Positions 3,101 through 60,833 of a stretch of DNA of 64,000 bases are shown here, piece after piece. This DNA comes from Steinernema hermaphroditum (lineage: Eukaryota > Nematoda > Chromadorea > Rhabditida > Steinernematidae). Position numbers and translations under genes: made by a program. The notes under the pieces are model-generated. The model did not search any database and was not told the origin of the DNA. It saw only the letters and a program-made list of their open reading frames with translations. How positions within the stretch are numbered: the stretch's first letter is position 1; every line of letters begins with the position of its first letter. The stretch is taken from NCBI GenBank assembly GCA_030435675.1, contig CM059623.1, positions 2,940,012-3,004,011 of the forward strand. The letters are read 5' to 3'.

Positions 3101-6100
3101 CACCGCCTATGCGACATCAGCTTCTCCCATCCACTTGTAGCCGATTTTTGAGCGTGTTTCGCCCTCGGGATCGTTTGAAACGTCTCCCTAAGGAACGCGG
3201 TGATTTGATAGAGAAGTTGGCAGGCGACCATCCTCAGCGCCGGAGGACACTTTTCGCCGCTGTTGTCGTTCACGATTCCCTCGTCGGTGAAATCCTCCAA
3301 ATCGTCGTATATCCTCAGTTTTCGCCTATCCGTCTCGGCTTCCGTCTCCGACACTTCCTCGTTGTCGATGAGCTTCTGAAGGCGTTCGCCGATCTGCACA
3401 CCCCACAGATAGAAACATCGTCCAGCGGCCCTCTGCATCAGATGCATTCTTCTTGTTCCGCTGGGAGTGCCGCGATTTCCGAGGGCGCCCCCTATGGAGG
3501 ACATTCCGCGGAGGTCGTGGGCTCCCGAGCGGATCCACTCGGGCCAATCGCCTCTGTTGCAGCGGTGAACGTAGTGGGCACATTCGAGGAGGAGCGTGGC
3601 TCGACCGAGGATCGTGGAGCGCTACAAAAACATGCAATTAGGTAATATTCATCATGTAGAATTGGACTCAAAAATGTGAAGTTTTTGAGGGTTGCTTAGG
3701 CGTGTCGAGGAACTCAGAAGGAAGTCCCATATCAGCACTCTTTTTGAACTGAAGCTTTAGAGAATCACCTCGAAAAGACGAGGGATTCTGATAATGAATT
3801 GCGTCGATGGTGTGTACCCAAGAACCGCACTATTCTTGCGTGCTACTAGCGCATCTTTAGGGAAATGCGGGGGCATGAAAGGTCCCGCCTTCGAGTCCCG
3901 TACTCGGGCTCCGAATCGGAACTGTGTCCAAACAGAGAATGACCACAATAGTGACGTGACCCGGTCAGTACTCGCTTTGGATTCGGAACTCAATGGCCTT
4001 TTCGAAATGGTTTAAACCGGTGCTAGGCCCTGGACCCCAACTTATTAACATCTCTGTTTTAACCTGGGGCTTTCAAATCGGATTCTACGATAATTTTTGT
4101 TCTCAGGTGTTAATGACGTTTACTAAAAACCAAGATCTATCATTATTTCTTTGACAAATTATACATTTTTGTTGGTGGGTCCCTTTAGGTTTCTCTCACT
4201 AGGTTTCGGTTTCTTTCTGGACTCCAGCATTTTGAAAGAACCATCTTCAAATGACGTGGGATTCTGATAATGAGTTGAGTCGGAGCCGTACACAAGAATC
4301 GCGCTGTTTTTGCGTGCCTAAAGGGGGAGAAGGGGTTCTATCTCTGAGTGCCGCACCCGGACATCATTCGGATCTGGTCTCTGCATCGGTACTGTTTCCA
4401 TAAAGAGGAGCGTATTCTTGGTGAGACCCTACCCGAAACATTGCTGCGAAATTTTGTGTTAGGACGGAAAATTAGAAAATTAGGACAGTGGTAACGGGAT
4501 TTGAGCGGACCCGAATCGCATTCTATGATAATTTTTGCTGATTGCGGCAGGTTTACCAAAGACCAAGATTTGTCATTATTCATGTGATAACTTATAGATT
4601 TTTGGTGGGCGAGGGGTTTCTCCCTTTTAAGGTTTCTCTCTACTTCATTTAAAACAGACTGTAGGAAAGATGATGAGAAAAATGGTTATAGGATATTCGT
4701 GGAGACGGGACCTGAACGGACCCGATCCGGACTCATTTTTGACTCTCATCCCCGAGACTAGGACCCCAATTTATTTTCATCTCTGGTTTAATCGATTCAA
4801 ATCGAATTATACGACAATTTTTCTTCATTTTCTCATGTGCTAGCGAGGTTTGTTAAAAACCAAGGTCAATCATTATTTCTATGAGAACTTATACATTTTT
4901 GTTCTTGGGGTTTTTTAGTTTCTCTGTTGACTTCATGTAGAGTAAACTGTAGGACAAACAAACCTACCAAATCTAACAGTGCCGCAATCAAAGGAGCATC
5001 GGGGAATGAGCCCGGCCTGCAGGTTTCCAACAAAAACGCGAATCTTTTTGCTCCTTCTCGAATCTCCAAGATGTTCACTTCTTTCTTAGGCGGCAAATAG
5101 AATCCTTTGATCTTAGAAGGAGGTGGCTGAAGTGGCCTCGGGTTGTGCAGAGGTTCCGCCGGAGCGCTATCTATCGAAATCGAGTGTCTCTGCCTCATAC
5201 TGGTGACCGTTTTGTGGGCGGCGTTTCGAAAAGAAATCTTCGTCGATCGCCTATCGCCATCAGAACCGTCTTCGCTGGCCAAGTCTTCGGCGATCGTCGC
5301 CTCTTCCCACGTTTCGTCATCATTATTATCGGCTTTGCCGCTTCCTTTGAGAAGGTTAAAGGCTAAAAACGCTAGATCATAGTAGGATATAGAGTCTGGA
5401 CAAACCCCTCCCAAAATGCAGTTTTCCTCCGGATTTCTTTTTTGAGTAGTGGTGCATAGAGGGGAGAAGAGGACTGGCTCCTACGGATTCGTCGGTAGCG
5501 CTAAGAACGTTTCTGGGTGTGGATGGACTGGAATCTCCATCGCTGTCCTCGGTGTTATGGCTGCGGTCCTTCTTCTTGAAGAGGCCTCGTCTGAGAGAAG
5601 CGTTGTCTCTAGACGTGGAAGTTGATAAGCCTCCAGAAGGACTGCTTTTGGTGCTGTCACTTTCACTGTTGTCGGCTGACTTGGACTCAGATCTAAAGGC
5701 AGTGAATCGTTCGAAATCTGTGAAATCTGCTTAACTTACGTGTCCTGACTTTTCGTCGGTGTCTGAGGCAATAGAGCGCTCATCCCCACTCTTCTTAGAG
5801 GATTCCCATGCTGCTCCTGGACGAACGTGATGAACATTCTCACGTCCTGGTAGAGGCTCTGAAAGTTCCTCCTTAACCACTTTACCAAACCTCTTACATA
5901 CCATATTCTCAGGAAGAAGCAGCTCATTCCACTTGTTCATCAACTTTGTGGTCGTCGGCTTCAGCAAAGCGCTGATGATGATGCCCTCGATTCCCTTGTG
6001 GCCTTCGTTGAAGTTGTTTCGATAGGTTGGCACCTTCGGATCGGTGTTCGAATATCTCCTTCTCGAGCTGCTGTTGCTCCTACGTCTGCCGGTGTGCATG

Positions 6101-9100
6101 TCCGATCGACAGAACGCGGTGATGGCGTGAATGTAGTCGAGAAGCTGCTGACACGTGTTGTCGTTCACTTGAGCTATGAGGATTTCGGTGAATGAGGTCC
6201 CGTCGATTCTGTGCATCTGAGAGAGGAGGTTTCGCGCTTTCACTCGCAGGAAGTCGGCTTGAGGCGAGCGGATTCCTTCGTTGCAGCCGTGTGGACAACC
6301 CAGCGATAGGTAGGTTCTGAAATGGTCTGCATTAGTGATTTAGCTTTAATAAAAGCTCTGAAAAACGTTTTTGAAAGACAGATCCAGCTCATCTGAATTT
6401 TTACCCCATCACCTCGTATTCGTACTGCACCTCTTTGTACAAATTTTTGGACATTGCATTATTTGTTCTTCCTCATTCTGAATCCGAAGATTTGCCGATT
6501 CTCAGAAGCCCATGAAGCGCTCCGCTACCCACCGGTTCGACATGAACGCCACGCCAGGGATGAAGCCGATGTAAGTCGTGTAAAGTCGCATTATTTGTCT
6601 ACAGTTTTGTAGCGATCGAGCGATTTGTAGATTGTGCTAGATGCTAGCCTTAATGAAGTTTCATCGATGCTCTTAATTGCTATGGACATTCAAAAATGGA
6701 GGGCGTCAAGTCATCTGAAGTCTTATACTAGCACCTCGTTTTCATACTACACCTTCTTGCACAGTTCAGATTTTTGAGTTTAGTTTTTTTTTTGAGTTTT
6801 TTTTTTGAGTTTGCGGTCATCTTTTCCTTAAAAGAAGGTTGTTTATAGGAATGTAGATATGTCTATTTTGACATTGATGGAGACTCGTGGCGAGATGGCC
6901 GAGTGGTCTAAGGCGCTGGTTTTAGGCACCAGTCTCCTCGGAGGCGTGGGTTCGAATCCCACTCTCGTCAAAATGTTTTCTTTTTTTTTGCTGGTCAATT
7001 ATTTATGTGATTCCAACTTTCTTTCGTATTATCAGAAAGCGTGACAATGGTATATTTACTGTATTTATTTATAACTTCGCTTTTGAAAAACTTGGAAAAA
7101 TCCAAAATTTTCTTTTGTCCACGTTTCGTAAGGAACATATCAGTCTTTGGACAGTTTGAGTAACGACCATATCCACTTTAAATATAAAAAACGTGGAAAC
7201 ATAGGCACATTTTGAATAATAAATAAAATCGATTATATCCTTATTTGCAGCTATTTGTTTAAACATGGCGAGATGGCCGAGCGGTCTAAGGCGCTGGTTT
7301 AAGGCACCAGTCTCTTCGGAGGCGTGGGTTCGAATCCCACTCTCGTCAAAATATTTTTTTTTGCGCCACAAAAACTCACTTTAAGATCATCTGAATGCTA
7401 TCCTCGAAGAACGACCTATGATCGGCTCCGGGCATTGTGAGGAGAGTGTCGCAAATATTCATGATAAGCTCTGTTATCCTGATGACACTGCATCGATCGA
7501 TGACAGAGTTCAGCGTCTTCAAGATGACATTGAAGTTGAGGTGACCGTTCTTCTCAATGAAATTTGAACTTCCGAGTGCCTGAATATCATTCAGTGTTAA
7601 ATGACTGTTTTTGGACTTTACCTCCGGATAGAACTGCAATGGACTCATTGGGGCCTTCGTCTCGTTTTCGGTGACATTTACGGTGGATCCAGCACGTTCC
7701 CAGAAGGAAAAGAAGTCGGAACTGCTGATGGACGGATCGCTTTTGTTCCGTTCTATGCGCTTCATACGCTCGCATCGCGACACTTTCGGAGTGATGGGAA
7801 GGGTGTTGAGACTTATCCGCCGACGTTCGTTGTGCACTTTTAGCGTGGTGCTCGCTGTCGACAGTCTGAAAGTGGATAGTCATTTTTGACATTCTATCTT
7901 TTGCACAGAAATGGCTATTTACGATGTGGTTTCTTTGTAAATATGCACCTTTGTTGGTGCATTTTTGGAAATTGCAGTAAGAGTCAAATTTTGATAAAAA
8001 TTTTTGAAGATCGTACGGTCGTTAAGTCAAAGTTCGCTAGGAAACAGATTTTTGCATTTGGTTAATGCATTTGGTTAGTGCCCATCATTGGAACCTCATT
8101 TACCGAAATCCTCATAGCTCATCAACTCAAATACAAAAAAGCAGAATGGAGTCGGCCCAGTCGGCTGGATAGACCGGATTAGATAGCCGATCCATTCCGC
8201 CAGTTCTCTCTGTGTCTCTGTACATGACCATAAATAAAGGAGCTTGCCCATTTTTGTACATTACGTTAGAAATCTCCCATTTTTTTTGTACATTTTTGTA
8301 CATTCTCATCAATTTTTGCGACGTATGGACCAAAAATAGGGTATCTAGATAATAGTCTACAATGTCAATCCTCTGAATACCTTAACCTTAAATAGGCCAA
8401 AAACAAAAGCCTCTCTACAGTACTCTACGGCTATTTTTGTTTCCAATGATGATCTAACTGTGGGCAGACGAATTCATTTTCATTTTCAACTCAGGCATTC
8501 GAATTCCAGCCCAAAACCCTATTCATCACAGCCATCACACCTTTATGCGCTGCATATGTTTTTCGACACCCTGTGAACGAAGGCAAGGAGGGAAGAGCCT
8601 GAAAGATAGACGAAAGATGTTTGCTATGATCAAGTAGCGAACCCAGTTTGCCGCTTTAACTCAGCAGCAACTTCATATTGAATGAATGGAATGAACACCA
8701 TTGATTGAGTAAGGAAGGAAGAATGTAGATTTTTGCATACATGCTGTCACTCAACACCTCAATAGCAGAAGGAATGTAAAAAAAGAAGTTAGTTTGACGT
8801 TCGTAACTCTTCCTCGGACCACGAACTCATCTCTCCGAAACAGATGCGAGCCCCGAAGTCGCCCCTGTGCTGCAAACGCCCGGAGAAGTGGAAGATCGGA
8901 AGCCGTTTCCATATTCAAATGTTTGAGTTCGTGTCTCTTTGCCAAACTTTTTGCTCTTTGATTGTCTCGATACTGAGAGATACAGGGCATTTTTGGTGGA
9001 GCGCCAGCGAACTGGACGATCGAAGATCCGACGGCATTTCCATATTCAAATTTTTGAATTGATGCTTCGGTTCCCAATTTTATGCTCTTTGATATCACTT

Positions 9101-12100
9101 AGATTGTCTCGATACTAAGATACAGGGCATTTTTGGTAGGGCGCCAGCCGACTGGACCGGATTGGATAGTCGATCCGTTCAAACGGTATAGTAGCTCTCA
9201 CTAGTTCTGCCTGTATGCATGCTGTCTTCATCCGAAAGGCCGTTCGTCCTTCTGAGTGTTCCACGCCTGTAGGCTACTGATATGTTGATATACATCATTT
9301 TCTCGATTCTAAGAGATACAAGGCATTTTTGAGGCCATGATTGGCGGACTGTTCCGTTCGGATTGTTCCCAATTTTTGGGCATGCACGAGTCAATTCTCT
9401 CTTTCAGAAATGAGGTGAGTGAGCGGTCGTAAACAGAAGTTTTCGTTCTTGCATTGAAGATGCAGGAATAGAAATTTAGGGATTTTCAGTGATTTTTGCG
9501 TATCCATGTTGCAGAAAAGTCCTATCGCTATTTGTTGACAACACTTCCGCTTAGTTCCGTGTCAACATTTTGGTATTTTTGTACATTCCTGCACCTTGGA
9601 TGTCCTTCTTTATATTTTTTGTGGTTCCTCCAAGTTTCAAGAACATTCAGCCAGTTGATGTTTAGCGATGTCCTTTTTGGGAAGAGTTCGGAATCGAAAC
9701 GGATGTTATATTTTTGGCGTTTCATTCACTCCGTTTAAGAAATACTTTACTATTTTTTAAGTGGATGTAATAGAACATATCTGATAGGAACAAGAAAACG
9801 GAGAACTGAAAAGGTGGGAGACCATGAAGGCGAGCTGACATTACCACCTCCAAAGGACAAGGAAAGATACTTTTGGTAAAGTGGAGGCTCGCCGTCGTCT
9901 TTGCCACGCGGGACTTGATGTACGAGAATAACGGGCGTTAGTTTATAACACAAATTAAACTCGTCACAAAGAACAAAATCGGTTAAAAACAGGTTATCAA
10001 ACAACGGACGCGCTGAGTATCAATAGGTCGCTTGGTCTCGACGCGATCGTCTTTTCAAATTTCCTTCCTTCGCGCGTTTGTCCGTAGTTAAATCGCGCTC
10101 GGTGACGATATTTGGCCGCTATTTGCTGTTAGATCCCATCTATTTATTGGCAAACAGCGTGTATCTTTGGAAGAGCTGTTGTTGGCTTGTGAAATCTTAC
10201 CCGAGTCTTACTCGCGTACTGTAAACGTGCACTACACCTTTTCTAAATTCTACGATGTTGCATCGTCTTAATGATCTTGATATCCCTTTGCAGCATTTTT
10301 GGTTAACAGACATAGAGACAAGATAGAATGGGGCTCAAAGTGAATATATAAAAGAGGTTTAAATTGGCTTTGACCTCTCCGTTGTCAGCGAAAAGTGACC
10401 GCAATTGAAAACAGTCTTAAAGGACTAGCAACATCTCTTTCTTTGTGTGTTACGACTTTCCAATACAGGCGAGCAAATATTAATTTTTGGCGTGAGGTTG
10501 TACCAAGTGTTTCATTTTTTACTTCATAATCATAATGTAATTGACCGATTTGACCGTCTCTCTGCTAGGCACGCTAAAGCAACTGAAATTGTTGTTGTCG
10601 CTGTATCTCCAATTCTGATAATCAACGAACGGATGTTATATTTTTGGTAAGTCTTGCACCTTTCAAGAGCATCCAGCCAGTTGATGCTTAGCTAAGTCTT
10701 TTTTGGGAAGACCTCCGGATCCGGACGGATGTTATATTTTTGGCGGTTCATTTCACACCGTTTAAGGAATACTGTCGCCTCTTTTATTGTGTTTTTAAGT
10801 GGACCAAATGCGAATAAATATCTGATAGAAAAAAGAATATATATCGTATATCTCTTCTGTTATATTGGGTTGATGCATAATAAATGAGCCTTTTTGAAAG
10901 TAGATATTTATTACCAAAAAGGCACACAATCTAATCAAGGTATTTGCCGCTAGCATCAGCAACTTCAGCCCACTTTATGGCCCGCATTCGGATTCCTCGT
11001 TCGTAGAGTACCCGAGGTTTAAAATCGAAAAATGGTTTTGGTCAAATTTTCGACCTCTTCACCTTATTCTCAGTGGCTTTCTCTGATATCTTCATTTACG
11101 GACGCGTACAGATGACAGTAAGATAGAGCTAACAGAGCTCTATACGAACAACGAACATGAGTCTCACAGCTCAAAGTGGAGAGCCTTTGTGGGGGTCAAC
11201 TTGAAAATACACGGCCTCGGAGAGTCGTATTTTTTAGGAATACAAGGGCCATTTTTTCTACATTTGGCCTCTTTTTCCTTAAAGTAGAAATGAGCTCGTG
11301 AAGTCACTATGTGGGCATGATAGCTGTGAGCGATGGCTATCTGCTGCATGTCCCCGTTCCCTGTTATAGTACTTAACCATTTGGAAACATTGGAGTTGAT
11401 GGAACATGGTGATCCGAAACGGCCATCTTTTTGAGTTAGCCCATGCTGTGATATACGACGACCGCAGCGGTAGGTGCATTCAATAGGCAAGAACCAAGGA
11501 TGTACGTGGTAGAAGGCAGTCACCGTCCATCACACAAATGCTACCATAGGAAGTCCATACATCACTTCGTATTTCGCCATCTCGAGGTGCCAAAAAATGA
11601 TCATAAAAACAAAATAGACCCCCAACATCAAGAGGAATGTAACGGACAAGCCGCCAATGATGATGTAGAGTGAGAGCTAAATGTACTCAACAACGAACCA
11701 ATCAATTATACCCCAGGAGTAAATATTGTAAAAATAAAGGATGTTTACCAAGGGGCTCATTTTCAATGCATCAACCCAATAATTTTTGGTTGTTACTTCC
11801 CTCAGTTGCTAGTGTCGTGTCCGGAAGGGGACAGACAACCTTCATTACTGGGTGTGTGGCACATGCACTAGTTATAGTATAAATAAACTTTATTACATGC
11901 GTGAGGGGACTAGGGAGAGAGAGGCAGGACGACCGTGCGAGAGACGTCGCCGACTCGCAGCTGGTGGGCAGCGAGTCGGGTCAGCACTCTGCTCGGGTTT
12001 GCGAGACGCGGGCTTTTATACCCGATCTCCTGAAGCGCGGGAGCGCTGAGGCGGAGCCCCGACACTAGCTTCTAAGAAGGAAGGGCCTTCCCATTCGGAA

Positions 12101-15100
12101 AAACTTGTCCGAGAGCCAGGCGATCAGACGTCGGATAGCGCGTAATGTACACAGTCTCTTATCGCTTGATCTCTAACTTCTTCAGAGGTCTTCGGCTGGT
12201 ATCTATTATTCAGTTGGCATCGCCATTTAATGACGGCATTTCTTTTGCACCTTGGACGCCCTTCTGCACACAAAATCTTGGCATTAATCAACGAACGGAT
12301 GTTATATTTTTGGTTTCAAGAGCCAGTTGATGCTTAGCTAAGTCTTTTTTGGGAAGACCTCAGGGTCCGAACGGATTTTATATTTTTGGCGGTTCATTTC
12401 ACACAGTTTAAGAATATCGCCTCTTTTATTGTGTTTTTAAGTGGACCAAATACAAATAAATATCTGATAGAAAAACGGAAAATGGTATGAGGAGAACTGG
12501 AAAGATGGGATACCGGTAGGGAGAGCTGTCGAGACATCACTTTTTTCCAAAGAATGCGACAAATCGCAGATCGTAATAACACCTCAACCGATATAGGCGG
12601 AACTGTGTTGCCCAATTTTTGACTTAACTCCTTTTGGCCTCTATTTCTACTTTGTTTACTGGTAGAGACCTGTATTTTGGAGGAAAAGCTGGCCTTTAAG
12701 AGCCTTCTCTTGAATCCTCGTATCCCTTTGGAGCGTAATGTGGGCGCGCACTACACCTTTTCTAAACTTTACGATGTTGGATAATCTTGGACCGTCTCTC
12801 TGCTAAGCACGTGGCTTTCTTGCTTATAGTGTTATGGCTAGAGTTTGTCAATAGAGTCAACTGAAATGTTAATTTTTGCGTAACAGTTGCTCTTCAATCT
12901 TTGTATCAATGTCTTGTAGTCTTGTTGAGTCTTTTTGGGCAGTGACACTTCCAAAGAACGCGGTTCACTTCGATCGTAACAACATTGAGTTGACCGAGTT
13001 GATAGTCTCTCTGCTAGGCACGCTTAACTAACTGAAATCCGTGCAAAGTGTATTTGTGACGGTCTAAGGCAAATGCCACTTGGCCACTTATTTCGACTGC
13101 TCTTTGACTGCTCTTTTTTTCAGTTATAATTTTTGACATCGGCACCGTAGTGCTTCTACGAAAGTTTCTAAAGTCTCTTAATTGGATCATTCCCTGGAAT
13201 TGGTCACATGTTGTTGGATGTAGTCGCATAGAGTTGCCTTCTTGGTCAAGTATGAACTCGTTGCATTATTTTTGCTGTTCACATTGCACTTTACACTTTT
13301 AAAGGATATGAAAAATCAGCTTTGACCGTTCCGTTGTCAGTGGAAAGAGACCGCAATTGAAAGCAGTCTTAAAGGACTAGCAAATCATTTCGTGGCTTTG
13401 TTGCTATATAGTGTTATGGCTTGCCAAAAGAGTCGACCAAAATATTACTTTTTTTTTGGTAGGAGATTGATGACTATCTTGAATCTTGTTTGATTTGTCA
13501 CTCTATAATCTTATGGGATTGTAGCGGATTGATCTCTCTGTGGTCTCTCTGCTAATCGTGAAAAAACATAGGGAGCAACCGGATTTGAACCGGTGACCTC
13601 TCGATCTGCAGTCGAATGCTCTGCCACTGAGCTATGCCCCCACACCTTTATCCGGCTCTCAAACAGTACAACCGTCGACAATAAAGTCGCCGCGCTGCTT
13701 AAACAAAGAAAAGTCGAGAGTCGCCACCTGTGACCGCCGACTAGATGTGCACTCAGTGGTCCCGTGGTGTAGCGGTTAGCACTCAGGACTCTGAATCCTG
13801 CGACCCGAGTTCAAATCTCGGCGGGACCTTATGTTTTCCCTTATGATAAGAAATAAACAATTCCGAAATAGCTTGAATGCACCTGAATGCAAAGCGTGCA
13901 CCAAAAAAGTTAACCTGTCGCGCAGCTTCGCATATCCCTAGTTGAATGGCAAAATATTTTTGTTTGAGAACTTGTTGAACTGATGACATGTTGTTCAATG
14001 ATGCCTTTTTGGCTTGATGCAAACTGATTGCATCATTTTCACTTCTCCGAAAGTATTTTTTGGATGTGCCTTGTTGTTCTTCTTAAGATTGGCGTAGTTG
14101 AATGGTAAAATATTTTTGTTGACTTTTTTTTGGGATAAGGACTTACTTCTTAACTTTGGCGCCTCCAAAATTGACTCTGTGCTTCGGAGGAGGGATCTCC
14201 TCCACCGGCGACTTCTCATCTTCATTGTAGTTCTTAGCCAAGATCTCCGAGCTGAGCTGCAGATCTGCCCACGTCGGATTACGGTACGACGCCTCTGACA
14301 AGTCCTGCCGAGAATCCATCCCATCGGCGAACGATATCCTCACATGGGGTACGGTAGGCACCGAGTTCGAGCGATTGCGGTGCATGATGTCCTGGTTGCA
14401 TCGGTGGATTTGAATCTCAGTTAGACGATTGAGAAGGTACTTCACCGCCCAGTAAATCCCATCTTCGGACCAGTGCTTTATGAGGAGACAGCGAATGACG
14501 GCGACGTCGAGGTACGACGCTACATGGGGATCGGAGGTGGCCTAAACTACCGTATTTGAGGACATCTTGCCGCAGGACCCACCTGTTCGATCTGTTCGGA
14601 ATTGGTGGAAGTACTGTCTTGAGCGTGGAGATTTCTTGAGCTCATCGTCACGCCGCCAAGGCTAATCTTAGGCGGTGGCAGAGGCGGTTTTTGAGCGGCT
14701 TTGTTGATGATGGTCTGCTGGCTACTTGTCGAGGCCGTGTCCGTCTGATTGGACATGCACCTCGTGGACGAACGAACGGACGAATTCTTCGATTCGGACT
14801 CCCTCCGATTGTTGACGACTATCTTGAATCTTGAGCTTGAAGAAGAGGACTTCCGTTTGCACTTGCACACGCCTACGACCGTTCCTTTTTGAAAGACTAC
14901 CGTACTACAGGCTTCACACACCACCTGAAATAGACACAAGTTGTATTTTTGAGCTATCCATTGCGGTTCGATAGAACGGTTTGAAACGATCAGAGACTGT
15001 CGTAACATCCCAATTTGCATTGTAATTTCGAATGGCCTATGATTCTTCAGAAGCTCTCACTTATTGGGTTTTTGGCTTAAGGGCAGACGAGTGTATGGGT

Positions 15101-27100: not shown

Positions 27101-30100
27101 AGATAGACACATCAGTGACTATAGGTCAGTCAGAGTTCATTTGAAATATGGAAACTTTCGACAAACGCGGAAGCAGCAAGAAAATAAAAACAAAAAATAT
27201 TCGCAGTCAGCAGGATTCGAACCTATGCGGGCAGAGCCCAATTGATTTCTAGTCAATCTCCTTAACCACTCGGACATGACTGCATGTGCTGTTAGTCAGC
27301 ATGGAACCCTATATATAAACGGAGAACCGACGGGTCCATTGGTCTGTCTGTGTGGGTTTTTCCGTTCGTAGGGGGGCGGAAAGGAGGACGCAAAATAGGG
27401 CAACGATCACAAAATGTCGTTCAAATCGTTCGGAAATATGGACACCATAGTAGGTCCCAAACTACGTGAAAGACGAGCGCTGTGAATCTAACTCGGTGAA
27501 GTTACTGGGGGCATTTTCGTGGAAATTGCTTGAATGTGATTAATATCTTGTTGTAATACTGTGCGGGGAAAGAGCGACGCACCTTTCCAAAACGCTGAAA
27601 TAAAGGTCATACCACCAAAAAGCGCGTTTCAAAAGACGTAGGATGACGTTAAGTCATACACGCAAAGTATGCTGTCTAGGCAAGGCTCGGTGACCAAATC
27701 GAAAAAAAGTGACACATCAACAAAAATCGGTGGTGTTTCGTACGTTTCGATGGGATTCAGATCCGGAGTATATGTTTGCCAAGGTGCGCCTATCTTTCTG
27801 CACCGTACTGCATACTGTCATTTTTGAAAACGACAACTGTGTAACAGGGATTTTTGGAGATTCCTTTAGATCACCAAGTTGATTGCGAAATTTTTGTACA
27901 TTATTGAGGCATATTATAAAAGAAGCATACGAGAGTAACTTCTACATCAAGTCTGTCAAGCAGATACCTTCTTCATGAAGAAATAGTCTATAGAAGGATT
28001 TTTTGAGGACCAATATATGTGCAGAGTACTTATGGATTTATATTTTTGTTTTCGAAGATCTGTCGACTTTACATGTAGTGTAAATCAAAATAACATTTCA
28101 TAGGTTATACTACACAGTTTGCTAGCATCTGTAGCATGGAGCCAGAGAAAAGGGCAGGAAGAACAAAGCATTTTTGCGGTGGAATTGGGTTGCCATATAT
28201 GTACATGGTTCAAGGGGTTCGTGGGAACTTCTTATTTTGTACATGGCTCAGGGTACGGTCAAACATATACGGCTAAGATCAACGCGACACCAGGGGCGGT
28301 GTACTAATCAAACACGTAAGCCATACAGACAGTTCTAACAGAGCGATTTTGAGTCACTTTTAGTCTCTTTTTGTCAGCAGTAGTTTGTCCGTAGGGCTAC
28401 TTGGCGATTTTCTTGAAGATTTTTGCACTCACAAGGGAACCACCCGAAGTGATACGCGCCGATCGAGCTGCGGTGTGGTGGGCCGGCTAACATTGTGCAG
28501 AGCCGAGCTGCGGCAAATTTCAAAACAAGCAAGTTAAGCATTTTTGCTAGATTTTGCTGCCCGGGTACAATAAAATTCGACCTGAAACGGCAAAGAAGTT
28601 CTGTAAGATGGCGGTGGGAGACCTTGAGTTGTCAATTGAAAACACTCCGAGTGGTTGTTTCATCTCCCGTCCCCGTTTAAATCGCCTAAAAGGCAACAAC
28701 AGGGAAGAAACTAGCGCTTTGCCGCAACAGAATTCGTGTGCATCTACATTATTGTATGTGGATAATTTCCGGGTCTGAGGGAAATGATCTTTTTCCTTTA
28801 TGCGGCGAGGTAGACTGCAGGGTGGTTCCCTTGTCAGTAATTTCGCGCATCAGAAAATCCTGAACTTTGCTTTTCAATTTTCGAAGGTCATACTCAAGCA
28901 GTGAAGTCAAGAAGTTCGCAATTTTTGTATGCGTACCGCAACATCGCAGATTCTGTATATGTATGTATGGGTGAATGTAGATAGCTTTCAAATGTGTTAA
29001 ATTTTTGGATATGGAAATAAAATGAGCATTTAAAAACTCTGTTTACATTAAACAAAAACGAAATTGGTTCAGCATTTTTGTGGGGAGTTGTACATATTAG
29101 CAAGGCCTTTTTGGTTATCTGAGGCTATTTGAGGTTGTGCTTAACAGCTTCTTCTGCTTCTTAAGCAGCGATATCGATGGTTGGTTAAATGTTCTACATG
29201 GAGCGATTCACACGAACGCTTAATTGTGAGTAATTCTATTCTATTTTTTTTTCTTTTTTTAATATTTTTGTGTGTTTGAAGACAGGATGAGTTTCAAGCA
29301 CTGCCCACTCAAACGGTCAAGAATCGCTACGTTTATTGCGCCAGCCGAACCCAAGATGGCTCTCCACTTCATCAGCTGTGCTCTGCCGCCTGCTTCTCTA
29401 CGGAAATAAGCCGCTCAACCACACCCATGGTGCTACTGTTTCCTGTATGCGGATACCATCTCCAATCGGGACAAGAAGAAGATCTACCTCAACGATGTGA
29501 TTTGTGTCCTCTTGTACGTCGTGCATACAAAACGACGTAGCACAGTAAGTATAATGCTGTGATTCCAGAAGATTATTGTTCTTGTACCATAATAGAGGTT
29601 TTTCATGATAGACGTAATGTCATTGAGCTAATATATTGAACATAAACAATGGTAAATAGGTAACATTTTTGGACGTGTATTTTTAGTGTGTTCATAAACC
29701 GTGTAATTACTCTTACTTGTTTTTATAAATATTTTTGTGAGGAATTCGCACAAAGATTCGGAATTGCATCCACAGAGTCAAGGGTTGTTCTGGTTCGTAT
29801 TCGAGAAATTGGGATTAAAGGGACCCGGTCATGGATAAAAAAAGTTTTATAAATCTTCTGAAAATTTGTGTACCCCTGTTTTCGGGGTCGCTGAACACGG
29901 TGGTAAAGTCGGTTTCCCGAAAATCCCGGTAGTTTCCAAGAATCAGGCCTTAGGATTCAGAATGTGTTTTACTAAGGATCCCGGCACGATTTGTTCGGCG
30001 GGAAACAACCAGCGCACAGCATCTTCGCTTTTTCTCGGCGCACTCGGCTGCTAAATGTTTGCGGTTTTCTGTATCATCATATATCGAATTATTCCGGAAT

Positions 30101-33100
30101 CTATCAGATAAGTTCAATGTATAATAATGTAGGTGCTTTTCGATCCTTCTTTTCAGGGCGTACAGAGGGAAGCTTCCAATTAGGGAGCAGATCGTGAAGA
30201 TTCTGAAGTAAGTTCGTCAAGATTTGCTGAGCCCTACTGAGAATACGTCCTCAAGTCGAACGGTACAAGCGAATCTGCATATATCTCGCGGAGCTCGCCA
30301 GGATAGATCCCTTACCGAGCTCGCATAGATCGAATGCAAGCCGCTGGGACTGAAACTCGGCCTGGGCACTAGTTTACGGTTTATGTGGAGAACATGCGTC
30401 AGGGAAAATACTTTTTATTGAACTTACTCTACAGAAGAAACGAAGAAATGGCAAAGAAGGCGCAAAGAATGGTTCGTTATTCTTCGTCAGATTCGTTTGC
30501 GTCTTCAGGAACGAACAATAGGTCACTTTCTTCGCAGTCGTCGATATTGGAAATTGCAGAAGGATATTCCGTGGGCGCATCTTCGACGTACATCACCATA
30601 ACAGGTTGCAGTTCTGTTTGCAGGTTTGTGCCATGAGTATCCTGAACGTTTGAGGCAGACTGTGTTGCTGAAAGAAGAATTGATTGGCGCCACTCATTCA
30701 GAGGTTTGAAATGAGCGTGTTTCTGGACATTACGACGCTGCGATTTACTGAAAACTGTTCGAGTTTTTTCGGGAGGGCCATTTTTTATGTACCGCAAGCG
30801 GATCTCGTTATGATGAAGCACTGCCATCTTGGATCGTTCGAAGTAGGCGCCCTTCGGATAGAAGTGATCCTTTGGCGTATAGATCTTGCCGGCCACAGAG
30901 TGGAAATTTTCAATACTGGACGTTGTGCAGATCGGAGAGCACTCGACTAGATTTTCAAACACATGCGGTTTCAGTACTTCAATATATATTTGTAAGAAGC
31001 ATCATCTGGGCTAAACCGTGCCTGATCGTCTTGCTCAGGATCGTGAAGGCATCGTTCAAGTCGCTTGAATTTTTCGTTTGGGAGGTTATGTATGCCTACT
31101 AAATGATATAAGCAGCTTTCTGCCACTTCTTTGCAGAGTTCCCCGTCCCCTTTAGCAAATTTAACCGAGAACCATAAGTGATTCGTCACTTGCTGAATTG
31201 AATCCCAAAGGTCGGACCGCTTCTTCGCTTTCGTACCCTTATAGAGCTGTTTCTTTACGTTTTTGATAACATGCCACGGATCAAGAAAACACTGGATGTG
31301 ATTCAGCAGGGGATCCTCCTTTATCATTTTTCGTACCGCCTCATTCTTATCAGTCGTTAACGATGCGATCTGCACTGGCACTACTCTATGCGCCAATTTG
31401 TCTACCAAGCGGTGCAAAATTCTTTTAGTCCCTTCGACCTCCATAGATGAGCTTTTATTCCCGGTTTCTGCTCGTTCCAGAACCTCAATATCAAGGATCA
31501 GGCCATCCCGATCCGTTACTGTGCAGCGGCATATCGTTGCACAGAATCCACGTGAATCATACTGTGCATCTGCACAAAGGTGAAGTCCTTCTTCTCCCCT
31601 TTCCGCCACTTTTTGGATGCTGATTTCGAGAATATCAATCTGCGATTGACAAAAAAATCGGTTCACTGAAGGAAGTGCGAAATGCTGAATATGTCGCGTG
31701 TGCTGCTTTTCTCGTAAAACCGCCAGTTCCGCAACATCAAAAGCTTCCACCAAACGATGATAAGAGATTCCTGCTGTGTAGCACGCCACTGAGAGTCCAA
31801 AGTCGCCGGAACACACCGATGTTCCACCAACCAGTGTTTGACTTCTCCAATCCCATCGCCCACACGAACATTTGACACCAATTGCAGATCCCTTTCGAAA
31901 CGCCCTCGCATTCTCACCCAAGTTTGTGGTACAAAAAGGACAATTTATAAGTTTGAGTAATACTTGGAGCTGTGCCCACTCTATGAAGAAGAATCGTTTG
32001 CCATCGACAAGCTCTGAGCTCGTGGACACTATTTCTGGAGTACTCTCGCAGTCTTCGAAATCGTCATCGGTAAATTCAACTTCTGTTTCCCTCGAAGACT
32101 GGTCAAATACAAAACTGGCCACGGCATCATCAATAATCACGGTCGAGGAACGCCGAAGAGCAGTTTTGCTCATTTGCGCACCCGATGACGAACAGGCGTA
32201 CCTCCGAACATTCACAGGAGCCGCGTAAGTGTTCGGCGGCTTATAAGGCAAAGGTAAAGATCCACTTACCAGTAATCCTCGCTCGTAGGTCCGATACGTT
32301 GCTGACCTTCGGTACAATCCCTGTGGAAAGTGTCGATCGCAGAGACGAGGTCGCGCTTGTGCGAACATCTGGTTTAGGATTTCCGGATATTGGCGAATAT
32401 CGAGGGCGTTAATCCAGCTGTTGCGCTCTTCTTCGTTGGTAGGAAAGCTTCGAAGTGAGTCGGCGGCCTCGCCACAAAGTGAACACTTCATGTTCGTCGT
32501 AACTGGCTAATTCCGAAAGTACAAAAAATGGCAGCTTACACAAAAAGTGCGCCGAGAAAAAGCGAAGATGCTGTGCGCTGATTGTTTCCCGCCGAACAAA
32601 TCGTGCCGGGACCCTTAGTAAAACACATTCTGAATCCTAAGGCCTGATTCTTGGAAACTACCGGGATTTTCGGGAAACCGACTTCACCACCGTGTTCAGC
32701 GACCCCGAAAACAGGGGTACACAAATTTTCAGAAGATTTATAAAACTTTTTTTATCCATGACCGGGTCCCTTTAAGCTAGCGTTGTAGACTCAGTCTTCA
32801 GCGATGTTGAAACTTTATGGATATTCTGATTTTGGGTATCTTTGAAATCTTGTTCAAGTGATGTGCTTTCAAAGTAGTGGCTAACAAATGCTTCGTAGGT
32901 GAAATGAGGATGCTTCAATTCAACTAGAGTGCCGTCTGAAACCAGCGAAAACCTTCTTTGCTGTATCATCTGTAGAAAGACACACATCCGTATGTATTTT
33001 TGCCAATCGCGCGTTCCACCTGATATGATTTTAAGGATTTTTGAAATTCTTCGAAATGTTTCTTCTCATTTAAAAGTGCAACATATACTTCGACATCTTG

Positions 33101-47263: not shown

Positions 47264-47485
47264 TCATGATAGAAAGCAAACGCCCCGAGAAGAAGAAGTT
47301 CTACTGCCATTTCCGAAGTTTTGCCGTCTCCCACATGCCCCGTGATGCGCGCCGTCTCCGACCGGTTCGCCATAAGCGCCACGCCAGGGATGAAGCCGGC
47401 TAAAACGAGACATCTGTTTGTCTATTATTCGGTGTCGTGCAAGGCGCAAGCCTTTGATTCACGAAATAAACTCGTTTATGAAGCT
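47264..47485 (+). repeat. Retroposon-family 3' end (type C) with hairpin and AATAAA
   Basis: AACGCCCCGAGAAG, GATGCGCGCCGTCTCCGACC, CACGCCAGGGATGAAGCCG and TCTGTTTGTCTAT match 63840-63990. It then completes the end missing from that copy: a GCAAGGCGCAAGCCTTTG hairpin and CACGAAATAAACTCGT. Confidence 0.8.
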
Positions 47486-51139: not shown

Positions 51140-52000
51140 CAACCCACCATTTCTGTTTGCGCGCCTTCTCCTCCGTCGTCAACGGCATGAGCAGCAGCTG
51201 TACCGTACCCTGATGCTGGTGTTGAAGGTAGCGTACGTGCATTGGGGTTACGGTAGGTGGTGCGGAAAGACGACGAGGGGACGATAGTAGGGGACGGGCT
51301 TTTGCGGGGTGCTGGTGGCCGAACAGTCATAAGCGCCTACGGGCTACACCATATAGCTGCCGCCTTTTCCAAGGGGATGGTCTTGTGGGTGGGCGCTCTG
51401 TGGGGAGGGGGTGGTTTCCCGCCGCTCCATATTTCGGACACTTTCGCCAGGCCCCTCCTCCCGCGGTCGGTGGCGGCGACGATGGCGCCGCTCAACCTCG
51501 GCCCTGTGGGCGCGATGGGGAGGAAGTGGGCGCGGAGGGGGTTCGCCCCTCTATCGATCATCATAGGCCGGGGGGCCAGTTGTAGAAGATGTGCTGGGTC
51601 TGAAGAAGCATCTCAGCGGCGCTTTTCGCTCTTTTCAATCGAAGCGCGCGCGAGAGGACACAACTTGATGCGCGCCGCGCGCGAGTCGATTTAATTCGTC
51701 TTCTTCTTCTTCTTCTTTGCCCCGGACTTTGCCGCCGCCGCGGCCTCTGGAATTCGGCAAAAACGGCGCCGCATTCCAAAAATCACAATTTCGTGTTTAC
51801 CCGCTGGGCGCTCTGGAAATCAGCGGGCGTGATTGCCGGAAACGTGCCGCTTTTGGAGCGGCCCCCCTCTGCAGAACGGGGTGATGCACGCGCATAATTG
51901 GAATCGAAGATGCTTGATGGACAATGGGTTGATGAGGAGGAGAAGGTGATCGCTTTCTGGCGACGGGGCGTCCCGGCAAGATCGCCGCGCGAGATAAGCG
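51140..52000. other. GC- and CpG-rich block, possible promoter or 5' exon
   Basis: Marked rise in GC, with CGCGCGCG-rich patches, GGGGAGGGGGTGG and a (TCT)n run near 51700. ORFs on both strands (up to 145 residues) overlap and none matches a family I know, so they are probably composition effects. It has no ATTTTTG. It could be the distal promoter or first non-coding exon of unc-80 or of a neighbour. Confidence 0.4.
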
Positions 52001-52305
52001 GAAATTGGGAGACGATGTCGGGCTGTGTGATGTGATTTAATGAGGTTGTTAAGCCAATTTGGGTAATGGGATTTGGTGGAGTGGGAGATGGCTGAATAGG
52101 GGAATTTTGGGGTCGATTAGGGGCGATTGAGTTAATGAACTTAGACGGTTGTGCAAGAGGATGATATCTCACGTATCGTTGGGCATGAAATCGGAAGCTC
52201 TATTTTTGCAAACTGGATTCCGATCCATAAAATCAACATAATTTCTCACGAGAATGAACGAGATTCAAGAGAAATTACAATTCACGAAGACCCAAAATTC
52301 GAAGG

Positions 52306-52374
52306 ACACCGGTAGGGATCGAACCTTTAACCTTTTGATTAGCAGGCAGACATGCTACCAATCAGCCACCACAG
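52306..52374 (-). repeat. tRNA-derived repeat, copy 2
   Basis: Minus strand: GGTGGCTGATTGGTAGCATG (A-box like) and AGGTTCGATCCCTACCGGTG (B box). The anticodon position would be GCT, but the T-stem is mismatched. Best read as a pseudo-tRNA or SINE head. Confidence 0.7.
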
Positions 52375-52751
52375 CATATCTGTGTAACTCACGAATTTGA
52401 ATGTAGTCATCACTACTTGTTCCTCTTTCTTGGGACTAAATTTTGTGATATGGTATTCCAAAGTGGTTGCTCTATCGTAGCTGGATGGTATCACCACAGT
52501 CGTAAGGCATTTGGTGGAGTTGGATATGGCTGAATAGGGGAATTTTGGGGTCGATTAGGGGCGATTGAGTTAATGAACTTATTTGTGCAAGATGATGATA
52601 TCGCACGTATCGATGGGCACAGAATCGGCACGAATATACTGGTTTTACAAGCTCTATTTTTGAAAAATTTATGGGAACCTATCAAATCGACATGATCTCT
52701 CAACAGAATGAAAGGAATACAAAAGAAATTATAATTAACAAATGAGCCAAA

Positions 52752-52820
52752 GGGGACCGGTAGGGGTCGAACCAGATACCTATTGATTGGCTGGCAGACA
52801 CGCTACAAATCAGCCGCCAA
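52752..52820 (-). repeat. tRNA-derived repeat, copy 3
   Basis: Minus strand: GGCGGCTGATTTGTAGCGTG and TGGTTCGACCCCTACCGGTC. It is paralogous to the copy 438 bp away, including the CCGGT-CCTT stretch downstream of the B box. Confidence 0.7.
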
Positions 52821-53006
52821 AGGGGCTCGAGCCATCAATTCATTTTATCCATTTTCTTGCGACTTTTTTAAGGCTGTGTGTGATATTGCAAACTTGCTTC
52901 TCTATCAAAGGGGGCTTATAAAAGTCTTAGATTCCATAAATTGGTCATTTTGGTCTCCGTCGTTCTGTACGATGTTAATGGATTTTTGTTCTTTGAACTG
53001 GAAGGT

Positions 53007-53613
53007 GGTCTTTCATTTGTGTTCCCAGTGATCGGTCGGGTCGTCCACTCGCTCTTTCTGATGCTGTCTGGGGCCGACTGAGTTGAGTGAGCGGTCGTTT
53101 TCGGCCGTCATTGTTGGTTGCATAGTGATCGCCCCGGCTCCCAGAGGGCCTGGAACACCAGGGAGCCGTAGTTCCAACGTCTTGCCAAGAAGCCCGTCAC
53201 TGCCGCCCGACTCCACCCGCGCCGCCAGAGAAGCCGAAGAAGCGTTACAACTCCGAAGTCTGTGCCGCCAGCTGCCTTGATGGTTCCCGGTTTGCCCGTT
53301 GTGCTCCACCGCCCAGATGCCGTTCTTCGCCCGTGCTGCCCGCGGAAGCCGCCGAAGAAGCTTCTCAACTCCGACGTCCGCGCTGCCACCCGAGCTGAAG
53401 ATGGGCTTGCTGTGTTCCACCGTCTCCGGGGTCAACTCTTCGCCTCTCTGATGCCTGCGCACACTGATGGGATCGTCGCCTTCTACTCTGATGCTGTGCC
53501 CTGCGCCGAAGCCAGAAGACCGACGACTACGGAGTGACAATGTGGTTTTTGTGCATATATATGACGTCTCGCAAGGCGTAAGCCTTAGATACGAGAAATA
53601 AACTCGTAAACTC
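53007..53613 (+). mobile_element. Non-autonomous retroposon, copy A (607 bp)
   Basis: It starts GGTCTTTCATTTGTGTTCCC and ends with the hairpin AAGGCGTAAGCCTT, then ACGAGAAATAAACTCGTAAA. It is flanked by an imperfect 12-bp direct repeat (GAACTGGAAGGT at 52995, GAACTGTAAGGT at 53614). The AATAAA about 12 nt from the end marks the plus strand as sense. Overlapping ORFs exist on both strands, the longest antisense, and none resembles a known protein. LINE-type mobilisation of a non-coding RNA is the best reading. Confidence 0.88.
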
Positions 53614-54684
53614 GAACTGTAAGGTTCAAGAACTCGGAGTGCAATGAGACGTACATGTAGTCGTCGCTTTATCCAGGAGATTAAAGCGAGGTAAAGAGCG
53701 CATTTTAATTCGCCCATATAGCGACGATCTGATACAAAGTCTAAGAAAAATTATTTTTGTTCACTCGGTCTTTAACAACAACTTTGCGTTGTGCGTTCTT
53801 CTTCCGCTGTTTAAAATCTGCTATTGAAAATACTACTGAAAACGATTGCTCCTAAATGACATGAATGTGCGTCGTATTTGCTACTCCTGGTGATGAATTC
53901 GAACCTGAACAACAACATATTATTTGAGCTGGATCTATCGGTCAATGCTGGCACTAAAATAATGGAGTGCCCTCAGTATTTTTGGCTAATTTGGGTGCGA
54001 TCGTATCTTCGATTTTTGTAACAACTTTTACGTATGCACCCCAAGAGATCATTTTTAAATTTTTGCATGGTTGGCGATGGTGCAGTGAGCATTGTTGGTT
54101 TGACCAGTCGATCTTGAGATGTTTCTTTCACATATGAAGCCATATCACAGCGAAGGAATATTTATTTAAAGGGTGTACTATTGACAAAATTCGACAAATG
54201 CTTCTTCAACATTCAGGGCGATTTTTGTTTGCAATGTACCAGTATAGTTGGCTCGCCGACAAAAGGTAACATTTCGCAATAACCTTTAGATTATTCCTTT
54301 TGGGTACTCTCCTCAGAGCGCCTTTTGATAGAGCGAATCCATCAAAGAGAATATAACTTGTGGTGTGATTCTATGGCTTTCAATTTCAATATATTTGGAT
54401 CTGCTATCAGCTACTTTTCTTTGGTACTGATCTCGAAGAAGCTGAGAAGGGCGTATATCTTACGATCTTTTATATATTAAATTTTAATTTTTGCTTCACA
54501 AAAAAATCATCGTAGTTCCACAAGTATATACTCGAAAAACTCGATCTCTTCAGGCACAGTTCAAGAAGTCACTTCAAGACAACTTCAGGGTACACTTCTC
54601 ATTTTTGAATTGCGAAATGATTTTAGATAAAAATCAGCTATAGTTGCTGTCATTTTGTCGCAGTCAAAACACAATAAATAGCAC

Positions 54685-54800
54685 TATTTGCGCAGTGATC
54701 GCTCCGGCTCCCAGAAGACCTGGAACACCAGAGAGTTGTCGTTCCCTTTTGCCAAGAAGGCCTTCAAGCCTCGTCGAAACAACCCGGAAGTTTGCGTCAG
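54685..54800 (+). repeat. Retroposon-family internal fragment
   Basis: GTGATCGCTCCGGCTCCCAG, AGACCTGGAACACCAGAGAG and TTGCCAAGAAGGCC match 53128-53200 and the second copy. Confidence 0.75.
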
Positions 54801-55204
54801 CCCGGTAAGCCGTTGACTCAAGAGTATAAACTCGGCACTTGTTCGAGACTGATTTGTTATACTTGATATCAGGGAAGATTGTTTTATTTTTGAGCGCGCG
54901 CTCAGGCGACAGTGTACGGAGAGGGGTGAAGCATGCTAATGCTTATAATGCGTGGATTGGTACAATTTTCAAACAGAATTAAATGTACTTCCATTTCAAG
55001 TTTTACTAGTGCAATTTTTTCCAAATTTTATGGGATAACAGCCGCGCTACTAATGGCATCTTACGTTCCAAATTACCATAAAGGGTAGCTTAGCCATTGA
55101 GATCCGTTTCTGTCAGTCATTCTCGTCCGCAACGTACTATGCGCAGAGCATTGTATCTAGCCTAAAATCCTGACCTATTGGGGGTGTACTAATCAAATGA
55201 TAGC

Positions 55205-55325
55205 AGGTCACAGACCATGAGGACATGCAACTGGTAGCCGTCACTCACGGCTCACATAGCGAATCCACGACCTCATTTCCACTTTACGGAAAAATGGGCC
55301 AAATGTTGAAAAAGTCACACTTCAA
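55205..55325 (-). repeat. Interspersed repeat, copy 3 (inverted)
   Basis: Reverse-strand GGAAATGAGGTCGTG, AACATTTGGCCCATTTTTCC and GCATGTCCTCATGG match the block at about 11250-11345. Confidence 0.55.
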
Positions 55326-56348
55326 GAATGATTCCTTGAACCTAGCATTTTCAAGTTGACCTCCGCAATGGCGCACTTTAAGCTGAGAGATTTCTATTTT
55401 GCTGTTTATCTAGCACTGTCTTAGGTCTATGTAACCCTCACCTGTGTTCTTCAATAAGTGACGACATCAGAGGAAACCACTATGAATAAGATAGAGAGGT
55501 CGAAAATTGGACCAATACATTTTTTTGACATTTTTAAGTGGACCCCAGAATGCATCTCCTTTTTAAGCTGAGACATTCCTGCTTACAGCTTATCCTACAC
55601 TATCGTAGCTCTATCAACCCTTAGCCGGTGTTCACCCGTAAGTGAAGGCGTCAGAGGAAACCACTATGAGTTAGAGAGAGAAGTCTAAAATCGGGCCAAA
55701 GACGTTTTTTTCATTCCAAACCTCTGATTTTCTATAAACGCTGCATCCGGATTTTGCTCGAGAAGTAGATTTCTGTTGCTGGTAAGGTGAATACGTTGAA
55801 ACCCAATAGTTATCAAGTTATCAAGGTTGAACATTCATGCACTGCTCTCTTCGCCACTACTCGGTTGACTGTGGGCCATACTGTGCCCAGAGATCGACGA
55901 TTCTTCGCTGACGCCGTTTGGAGTCAACCATCTTTCCACATCGACGTAAACAGAGTCAGACGAACAGAGAAAAGGCTGAATTCTGCTTGCATACTGGTTC
56001 CCGATTTGTTTGGATCGATTCGTTTGAACTGACCCGAAAAATTTTAAATAAAATTTTTTCTTGTTCGGTCAAATTTTTATTCTGTTGGGCCTTGACGTTG
56101 GGGCGAAGCCAATCCAATCGAATCGGACTTCAAAATTGGTCCTTACTGTAAAAATTCCGGTTTTCGGGTTCGGGGATGACACCTCTTCTTACGACTCAAT
56201 TTAGTTGAATGTCGTTTAATTTTTGCGCTGACCATTTCTTTACTGGGTACGTGTCTCTGTCCACACTGTGCCATCCAAAAAACCGCATTTTAGATCTTCA
56301 AGGGCTATTTGAAATGCGATCCATGTAACAAACGCCTCTTCACAATTT

Positions 56349-56780
56349 GTGACTTCCTCGTTCTTGCACTGCGCCTCATCATGCATGTGCAAAACTCACA
56401 GCTTTTTGCGTTTATGGCCTCCTGAGAGACGTGGATCGCTTTTGGGGGAGAAGAAGCTCAGACAAACTAATCGGATTTGTGGAGTGCAGATTGCCGAAAC
56501 CAGATATCGCGTGCCGACTTATCGCATCGAGTATCATGCTGGCGCGGGTTGGTTGCATCGCGTGCACATATTGACTCTTCTTAAGTGGGTCGATGGTTCA
56601 ATTCGTGCAAAGAATGGGGAATGGCGCTTTATTGGCTTCTCAGTGAGGGAACGCATGCTACGGTCGTTCGCAGAAAAAAAGGCTAAGATTTCTTATTTGT
56701 CAAGATGGTTCTTCAAATTCGACACAAAACAAAGAGTGACTGATTTTCTGAGTTATGATTACAGCTTTGGTTATATCTAG
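56349..56780 (+). CDS. Unrecognised ORF, 143 codons
   Basis: An open frame begins MTSSFLHCASSCMCKTHSFL and ends FLSYDYSFGYI. The middle, YRIEYHAGAGWLHRVHILTL then EWRFIGFSVRERMLRSF, has an ordinary hydrophobic/charged pattern, so this may be a remnant exon. No splice context, no family I recognise and no upstream coding support. It may equally be chance or an old transposon piece. Confidence 0.22.
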   Translation: MTSSFLHCASSCMCKTHSFLRLWPPERRGSLLGEKKLRQTNRICGVQIAETRYRVPTYRIEYHAGAGWLHRVHILTLLKWVDGSIRAKNGEWRFIGFSVRERMLRSFAEKKAKISYLSRWFFKFDTKQRVTDFLSYDYSFGYI

Positions 56781-58071
56781 GATGCAGCCCAAAGAGAACT
56801 AAACGGGAACGGTCTTCAATAATTTTTGTTTTTCATCTTTGCAGATCGGAGATTGTGTAATCTATATCTTTTGATAGATATTAGCGCATACAAAACGAAT
56901 AAGAAAAGTCGCTCTGCTCCTTGGTGGTATTTTTGAGGCCACAGATATTTCAGACAAGGGAACCTTCCACACAAATCAAAATGTTAGCCTTAGATTGGGT
57001 TGAAAGTTGGAAGACAACAACTACTCAGAGTGGTTTACGTTGGCCCCAAAATCCTATCTGCTTATCTCCAAATGGCTAAGGGCAGCCTTATAGAGCTTAA
57101 GGGTTTTTTTGATAGTCTATTAAGGATGCAAAACAACGAAGAGTGTAAACGAGTGATTGAGTGGGAGTCGAATCTGGATATAGTATTTGTAGCTCCCCAT
57201 ATGTCATGAGCAGGAGTTTATTGGATTTCGACAATATTGCATATTAGCTTGGCTTAACAGCATTGAGCTCTGGAAGCTTTGGATATTTTTGATATGTGTT
57301 GTGGACGACCTAAATTCCATGGGCTTGACCCATTGGAAACACCGAACAACAGAAGAAACTCCGTAGAATCCGTGGAATTCGTTGTAGGGGTAGTCGCTGG
57401 ATTGACATAGGTTGTTCATAGTACATAGGTTTTTTGTGTTTGGGATATACAAGAGGTCTCTTTTTTGCCAGTATCCGTTATTTTCGACTTTTGGCTTTCC
57501 GATTTTTGACTGATGGTCGCATAAAACCATCAATCATCGAGGCTTTTTACTATATTACGCGTTTTTCATCGGTCCTTCATCAAAAAAGCACTTTCCATTA
57601 AAACGATGACTTATGTCATCGGGCTGAATCGAAGAGTTTGGACCGATAAATTCATGGGCTGGGAAGTATTTATTACTAACGGAGTATTCGTGGCGAAGCA
57701 GCTTGATTTTACGAAGTTGGGGGAGCTGAGAGAGGAGGATGAGAGAAGAGATGTATGTTAAAGGATCGCGAATCGCGATGCAAACCGTCACGGACAGAAA
57801 TATCAGATAGGAATGGAATAGAGTGAATGCATGAGTTCGATCTGAAATAACTGTGCTTAGGCATGGTATCAATGAAGATAGCTTCGCGATTTTCTTGAAA
57901 ACACGGCGCGAAACACATTATTCTACAGTATGGAATACGTATGGATAGATCGGTATGACAACTATGTATCCTGAATAAAGCTTAGCCTACACCAACCACC
58001 GTCAATGGACACTTTTCTGTTTTATATCACAGCATCACATCAGTTCACATCTTTCAGCCAACCAAAACCAT

Positions 58072-60773: not shown

Positions 60774-60833
60774 GTGGCGATCAAGGATTCGAAGATCTAC
60801 GAACAACGAGAAATGGAGTAACTGAAGAAAGAG

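Follow-up and report, generated by a model that had tools for sequence, protein, structure and literature searches.

What does a short word repeated on one strand mark in a nematode genome? In the window, by which we mean the whole 64,000-nucleotide stretch analysed here, the heptamer ATTTTTG occurs 195 times on the plus strand and 16 times on the minus strand. The initial annotation had put the imbalance at about 190 to about 10, and the count over the span concerned (4090–57510) is 194 to 10. It had also regarded the pattern as more than AT-richness, with the opposite strand at background, and this view held: 100 dinucleotide-preserving shuffles of the window gave a mean of 26.8 copies and a maximum of 41 with both strands summed, against 211 observed, and one-letter variants rise little. 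The dense plus-strand block runs from a first copy at 4093 to a last copy starting at 57502, with a single isolated plus-strand copy to its left at 3144. The features discussed are collected in Table 1.

Table 1. Features of the window (window coordinates)
Feature	Position	Strand	Remarks
unc-80-like gene	2959–34277	-	human UNC80 residues 48–87 at 33.7–34.3 kb
unc-80-like gene, further matches	5.7–6.3 kb; 3.0–3.6 kb	-	UNC80 residues 804–925; 1214–1367
Plus-oriented ATTTTTG block	4093–57508	+	194 (+) / 10 (-), ~3.6 per kb
Complete example unit, ATTTTTG-N17-C	4093–4117	+	C at +24 from first base
Largest motif-free gap of plus block	29731–32996		holds Mutator-like ORF
Mutator-like ORF	30971–32506	-	one distant relative so labelled, 25% identity
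Orientation switch	57509–64000	-	~7 kb with repeats and five scattered copies; copies at 58651, 59684, 60486, 62668 and 62712 open the minus block
ORF in orientation switch	60822–62015		Gag-like in our reading of the sequence
Near-identical repeat copies	53013–53750; 62841–63458		
tRNA genes (Rfam)	2833–2914; 6889–6970; 7267–7348; 13570–13641; 13758–13829; 27202–27283		

The array had been described as stopping sharply at 57.5 kb. That position is indeed the end of one block, but the phenomenon itself goes on along the other strand: minus-strand copies appear from 58.6 kb on, and 76 minus-strand copies against 4 plus-strand copies were counted at 63–92 kb (window coordinates). This minus-oriented block reaches ~88 kb in the same coordinates, beyond the right end of the window, and is followed in the 100-kb right flank by a weaker, minus-biased stretch. 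The 100-kb left flank is at background, with 18 and 16 copies by strand.

Genes do not set these limits. The plus block is antisense to the unc-80-like gene (a further match, to UNC80 residues 1985–2161, lies left of the window), its left edge at 4.1 kb falls inside that gene, so that blocks do not follow genes, and it extends from the gene into DNA without recognised coding. The next recognised gene rightward, NR4A/nhr-6-like, is on the minus strand too. Motif orientation thus flips between two minus-strand genes and is independent of gene direction, and we rejected a gene-orientation effect on this ground. As annotated, the motif occupies introns and intergenic DNA alike (113 copies in unc-80 introns, 81 beyond the gene) and avoids exons, with 2 copies in 4,411 bp of nine sampled coding-like ORF stretches where 16 were expected. 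The Mutator-like ORF in the motif-free gap is probably a later insertion. Five of the six tRNA genes in the window lie within the motif block, and two more tRNA genes were seen just past the end of another array, domain D, introduced below.

Genome-wide, ATTTTTG occurs 20,165 and 20,128 times by strand, and the reversed word GTTTTTA 8,722 and 8,816 times. Such a count had been proposed as a check on the bias: the totals are balanced, yet oriented domains exist, so that the strand bias is local. Rows of three copies with gaps of 30–59 nt number 74 and 63 by strand and rows with gaps of 60–84 nt number 52 and 60 (tandem repeats included), against 0 and 0 for the reversed control in either class across the genome. 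The assembly has five large contigs (C1–C5, 16.7–18.4 Mb), which suggest five chromosomes. For the wider spacing, 100 of the 112 rows were listed, and 88 were kept as clusters once nine tandem-repeat rows and three second rows at the same place had been dropped. Among these listed matches the right arm of C1 holds 37 of 37, the left arm of C2 10 of 11, the left arm of C3 17 of 21 (the other 4 are on C3 right) and the right arm of C4 19 of 19; the end of C4, C5 (18 Mb) and the small contigs together account for at most 12 of the 112. For the narrower spacing, removal of tandem repeats and overlapping rows left 63 clusters among 100 listed matches, 62 of them in the outer 30% of a chromosome. 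Four chromosomes each carry their listed three-copy clusters chiefly on a single arm, and the heptamer array belongs to the genome at large and not to one locus.

Neighbouring clusters share orientation at short range. Among the listed 60–84-nt matches, 28 of 30 pairs lying 0.2–20 kb apart have the same orientation, as do 19 of 22 neighbour pairs less than 20 kb apart among the listed 30–59-nt matches. At 20–200 kb the listed 60–84-nt matches gave 9 same and 16 different, so orientation is random beyond 20 kb. ATTTTTG minisatellites were also noted, on C2 (880 kb, 8.634 Mb and 17.119 Mb), C3 (593 kb and 14.104 Mb) and C4 (1.558 Mb), several of them as adjoining arrays of opposite orientation.

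The concentration of clusters mostly on a single arm in four chromosomes (C1 right, C2 left, C3 left, C4 right) would be explained better by DNA-binding sites with a chromosome-scale function on one arm per chromosome, for example in a meiotic pairing centre, in anchoring or in nucleating heterochromatin, than by the short-unit reading preferred below. We nevertheless hold this to be improbable. C5 is nearly empty, at no more than the 12 of 112 clusters just given, C3 has a second site, and such sites offer no obvious role for strict block orientation and no explanation at all for a domain-dependent C at +24, described below. In C. elegans, moreover, different chromosomes use different motifs for meiotic pairing, and we know of no domain-dependent fixed-offset base, nor of strand blocks of tens of kilobases, at its pairing centres.

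How exact is the word? We compared ATTTTTG with its variants in five domains on three chromosomes, totalling 126.8 kb: two on C3 near 3.0 Mb, and one each at C3 12.38 Mb, C4 13.2 Mb and C1 15.3 Mb. The heptamer occurs 430 times on the motif strand and 20 times on the opposite strand. The purest array is that of domain D (C3:12.380–12.406 Mb), with 105 copies against 1. In the same 126.8 kb the commonest one-letter variants were TTTTTTG (80 on the motif strand, 40 on the other) and ATTTTTT (75 and 33), and the most skewed was CTTTTTG (44 and 14); no variant exceeded the other strand by more than about threefold, and most of the rest were near other-strand or flank counts. The description of the heptamer as an exact, oriented unit element used many times is supported, and it recurs over three chromosomes.

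The initial annotation had proposed a search for small RNAs at a fixed distance downstream of each motif, and at the sequence level there is a fixed-offset signal. Counting offsets from the first A of ATTTTTG as 0, the aligned copies of both main blocks show one outstanding column, a C at +24 in 109 of 270. By domain the counts are 67/194 in the plus block, 42/76 in the minus block, and 18/49, 13/32 and 11/23 in three further domains; domain D differs, with C in 15 of 105 and T in 47 of 105. C at +24 therefore recurs in five of the six domains, and with domain D included it remains the strongest column within 160 nt (combined z 8.4). A and G are depleted at this position overall. The base depends on the intact word: with domain D left out, C at +24 follows 151 of 374 intact motifs (40%), 145 of 652 one-mismatch variants (22%) and 6 of 34 opposite-strand copies. 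It is equally common in unc-80 introns (38/113) and intergenic DNA (29/81), and it is not repeat-derived, because singletons keep it (87/210).

The signal extends beyond the blocks. C follows at +24 in 13 of 34 copies in the left background flank, in 44 of the 142 copies that a 264-kb region holds apart from its two main blocks, and in 29% of 83 copies elsewhere (among the matches listed, some of them in the domains sampled above), where it is the top C column at z 2.0. Over all 40,293 copies in the genome, tandem repeats included, C at +23, +24, +25 and +26 numbers 8,333, 9,886, 8,877 and 8,436, made up of 4,188, 4,714, 4,568 and 4,160 on the forward strand and 4,145, 5,172, 4,309 and 4,276 on the reverse. 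On either strand +24 is the top C offset, with an uneven excess that is clearer on the reverse.

Around the aligned copies we found no second fixed element near the motif, only a weak T at -3 (combined z 4.5) and -5 (4.2), and no fixed column pairs. An A at +44, considered as a second signal, was rejected when it did not recur in domain D and another sampled domain, E (0.27), and ATTTTTGAAATTTTTG, tried as a repeated unit, had no match.

Spacing and composition give the unit a size. Of 425 gaps from one copy to the next, only 7 fall below 29 bp, and pairs 0–19 bp apart number 5, where jittering (which allows self-overlap) predicts 30; the minimum spacing is ~29 bp and the unit measures at least about that length. 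The stretch upstream (-29 to -1) is AT-rich (z -6.0), in both A and T, positions +7 to +28 are slightly GC-richer (z +2.3), and +29 to +41 are AT-rich again (z -3.2). This asymmetric profile belongs to intact copies and is flat around one-mismatch variants. Domain D lacks both the second AT-rich stretch and the C at +24, so neither is required everywhere; its array, T-rich at +24, may represent a second class of units. There is no 10-bp phasing in copy spacing, and a weak 164-bp period was reached by 7 of 300 jittered sets. As a look at possible periodic An/Tn clusters (PATC), autocorrelation of A/T runs at 10.5–11 bp, given without a significance test, was 0.32 in the plus block, 0.5 in the minus block, 0.08–0.14 in domain D and 0.14–0.20 in the flank.

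That all this should arise as a by-product of composition, of repeats or of the assembly is scarcely credible. The blocks are AT-richer and T-skewed, and some ATTTTTG minisatellites do exist elsewhere in the genome. Yet with the minus strand at background and the one-letter variants little raised, the strand control and the variants rule out a composition artefact; a dispersed repeat was rejected since the flanks of the copies are mostly unrelated (210 of 270 are singletons) and singletons keep C at +24; and the motif-bound C is found on three chromosomes.

The skew bears more directly on another reading, in which a whole block is transcribed in one direction into a single non-coding RNA of 20–60 kb, with AUUUUUG cut or bound so as to set small-RNA ends or mark the transcript. 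With the motif masked, the remaining strand-biased words are weaker, chiefly T runs, and T outnumbers A along the motif strand in the majority of 4-kb bins, a skew that flips with block orientation as transcription asymmetry would. Orientation common to whole blocks and flipping sharply also speaks for a long transcript, and the fixed-offset base and the spacing fit it; independent tiny genes would not need an orientation shared over tens of kilobases. On the other hand, GC skew keeps its sign where motif orientation flips, decayed motif copies could give part of the T skew, there is no structure near the motif, and the upstream AT-richness includes A as well as T. A long precursor would thus explain block orientation better than short units do and the AT flank less well, and we regard it as rather unlikely.

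A further possibility is that AUUUUUG is an Sm binding site on RNA and that the genome makes Sm-class RNAs by the thousand, or transcripts coated with Sm. In its favour, the Sm ring has seven subunits, and PMC7986045 names ATTTTTG among its examples of SL RNA Sm sites, under a default pattern of AT{4,6}G. Against this, three SL1 RNA genes of this genome carry AAATTTTGG. In the 126.8 kb, ATTTTGG (31 vs 16) and ATTTTG (106 vs 72) are little enriched, and ATTTTTTG is threefold higher but rare (21 vs 7). Neither fixed stems nor a clear stem-loop signal in the flanks was found; downstream folding exceeded controls by ~0.2–0.3 kcal, a difference of no more than about two standard errors. We consider an Sm site very improbable. 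The SL1 leader followed by GT has 250 exact copies genome-wide, and its presence identifies the genome as that of a nematode. Three of four copies from C2 match Rfam SL1 with scores short of the family threshold (33.6–35.8 bits; threshold 75), and a copy sampled on C1 showed no evident SL1 gene. Leader copies are dense at C2:15.3–16.07 Mb, often as inverted pairs ~240 bp apart.

Does the array belong to the clade V 21U (piRNA) loci, as had been suggested? Nematode piRNA loci are described, in passages of PMC6436959 and PMC4323106, with a Ruby or SNAPc-like motif, and in the former with an offset of ~42 nt from motif to piRNA and a YRNT initiator. The suggestion was not supported by comparison with these features. 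In 172.8 kb of domains the Ruby motif core CTGTTTCA occurs 5 times on the motif strand and 5 times on the other, and the 100-kb flank has 7 on both strands. Around +42, downstream T does not stand out (0.37 at +41, z 2.0; 0.31 at +42). Scored as YR, an initiator at +24/+25 reaches 0.32, above its neighbours through the pyrimidine alone.

A Piwi-domain search gave 91 exon-level matches in the genome, and at none of the 26 places inspected, one of them unreadable, did we recognise such a protein. Judged by eye against known hallmarks, 22 of the 26 look Ago/WAGO-like, three of them having SD where Ago has SE, and at 3 of the 26 the best PDB match was to Ago chains. The RDGVxDGQ codon pattern has 2 matches in the genome, neither at a Piwi match; a Piwi_N search gave no match, with controls equally silent. 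Two Argonaute exons with identical scores lie inverted 12 kb apart, at C1:12994868 (-) and C1:13006620 (+). According to PMC4323106, nematodes outside clade V have neither PIWI nor piRNAs, with Plectus an exception to this loss as stated in PMC6436959. Since the Ruby core is not enriched and PIWI was not recognised at the places inspected, our best guess is an array that functions as motif-driven small-RNA clusters do, without the 21U sequence features looked for.

Comparison with known systems gives likeness in part. C. elegans 21U clusters also comprise tiny units by the thousand, which have a short element upstream and a fixed offset downstream and are densely clustered within introns as well as between genes. 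Here, however, the motif is another one, the base is C and not U, the distance is 24 and not ~42 nt, the blocks are of one orientation, no YR initiator was seen, and no PIWI-type protein was recognised at the places inspected. The dispersed piRNA loci of Pristionchus are likewise intronic units that avoid exons on several chromosomes; as PMC6436959 describes them, they are about equally sense and antisense to host genes, in contrast to the dense one-directional blocks here. The 21-22U and 27GA RNAs of Strongyloides ratti (clade IV, no PIWI) have piRNA-like roles without PIWI, and 27GA RNAs start with G or A, which is how an RNA made antisense from +24 would start here. They are listed without an upstream motif, and 27GA also as unclustered, in a table of PMC9203780. 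Among the open-licence papers listed in our literature searches, judged by title and abstract opening, none describes such an ATTTTTG array.

From the observed exactness of the heptamer, its C at +24 in most domains, the spacing, the AT profile, the shared orientation and the arm location, we propose that ATTTTTG may form the core of a functional unit that is short and oriented, and that the blocks may be clusters of PIWI-independent, motif-driven short non-coding RNAs. We put the probability at roughly 40%. A fixed base without sequence context, dependent on the intact word and differing between domains, would be best explained by an RNA end at +24. Each unit would drive or mark a non-coding RNA of very small size, one end of which is set at about +24/+25, and the blocks would work like nematode piRNA clusters, with a different element and no PIWI protein. 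A single domain-dependent base at a fixed offset could be the trace of the 5' base of a small RNA, sorted by different Argonautes. Read from the opposite strand, the RNA would have a 5' G, as in RdRP products (26G and 27GA RNAs), and the motif would lie at its 3' end. That an RNA is made, from which strand, by which polymerase and with what role in silencing are steps that we infer. Cluster counts and the genome-wide C excess give a rough estimate of some thousands of units in the genome.

In its fullest form, which we offer tentatively and from sequence patterns, the proposal is that thousands of small-RNA genes, each driven by the motif, would make up a new class that works without PIWI. They would be arranged in blocks of a single direction, for the most part on one arm of most chromosomes, with a domain-specific 5' or antisense 5' base at a set distance from the exact heptamer, and would be an independent substitute for the piRNA system in a nematode that had lost it. 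How PIWI-less nematodes recognise foreign DNA is an open question, and a sequence-encoded array of thousands of uniform units, in each of which one downstream position is fixed, would offer a concrete candidate for what replaced piRNAs. If instead the pairing or chromatin reading were true, the array would amount to a chromosome-arm code with orientation, of a kind that we know from nowhere else.
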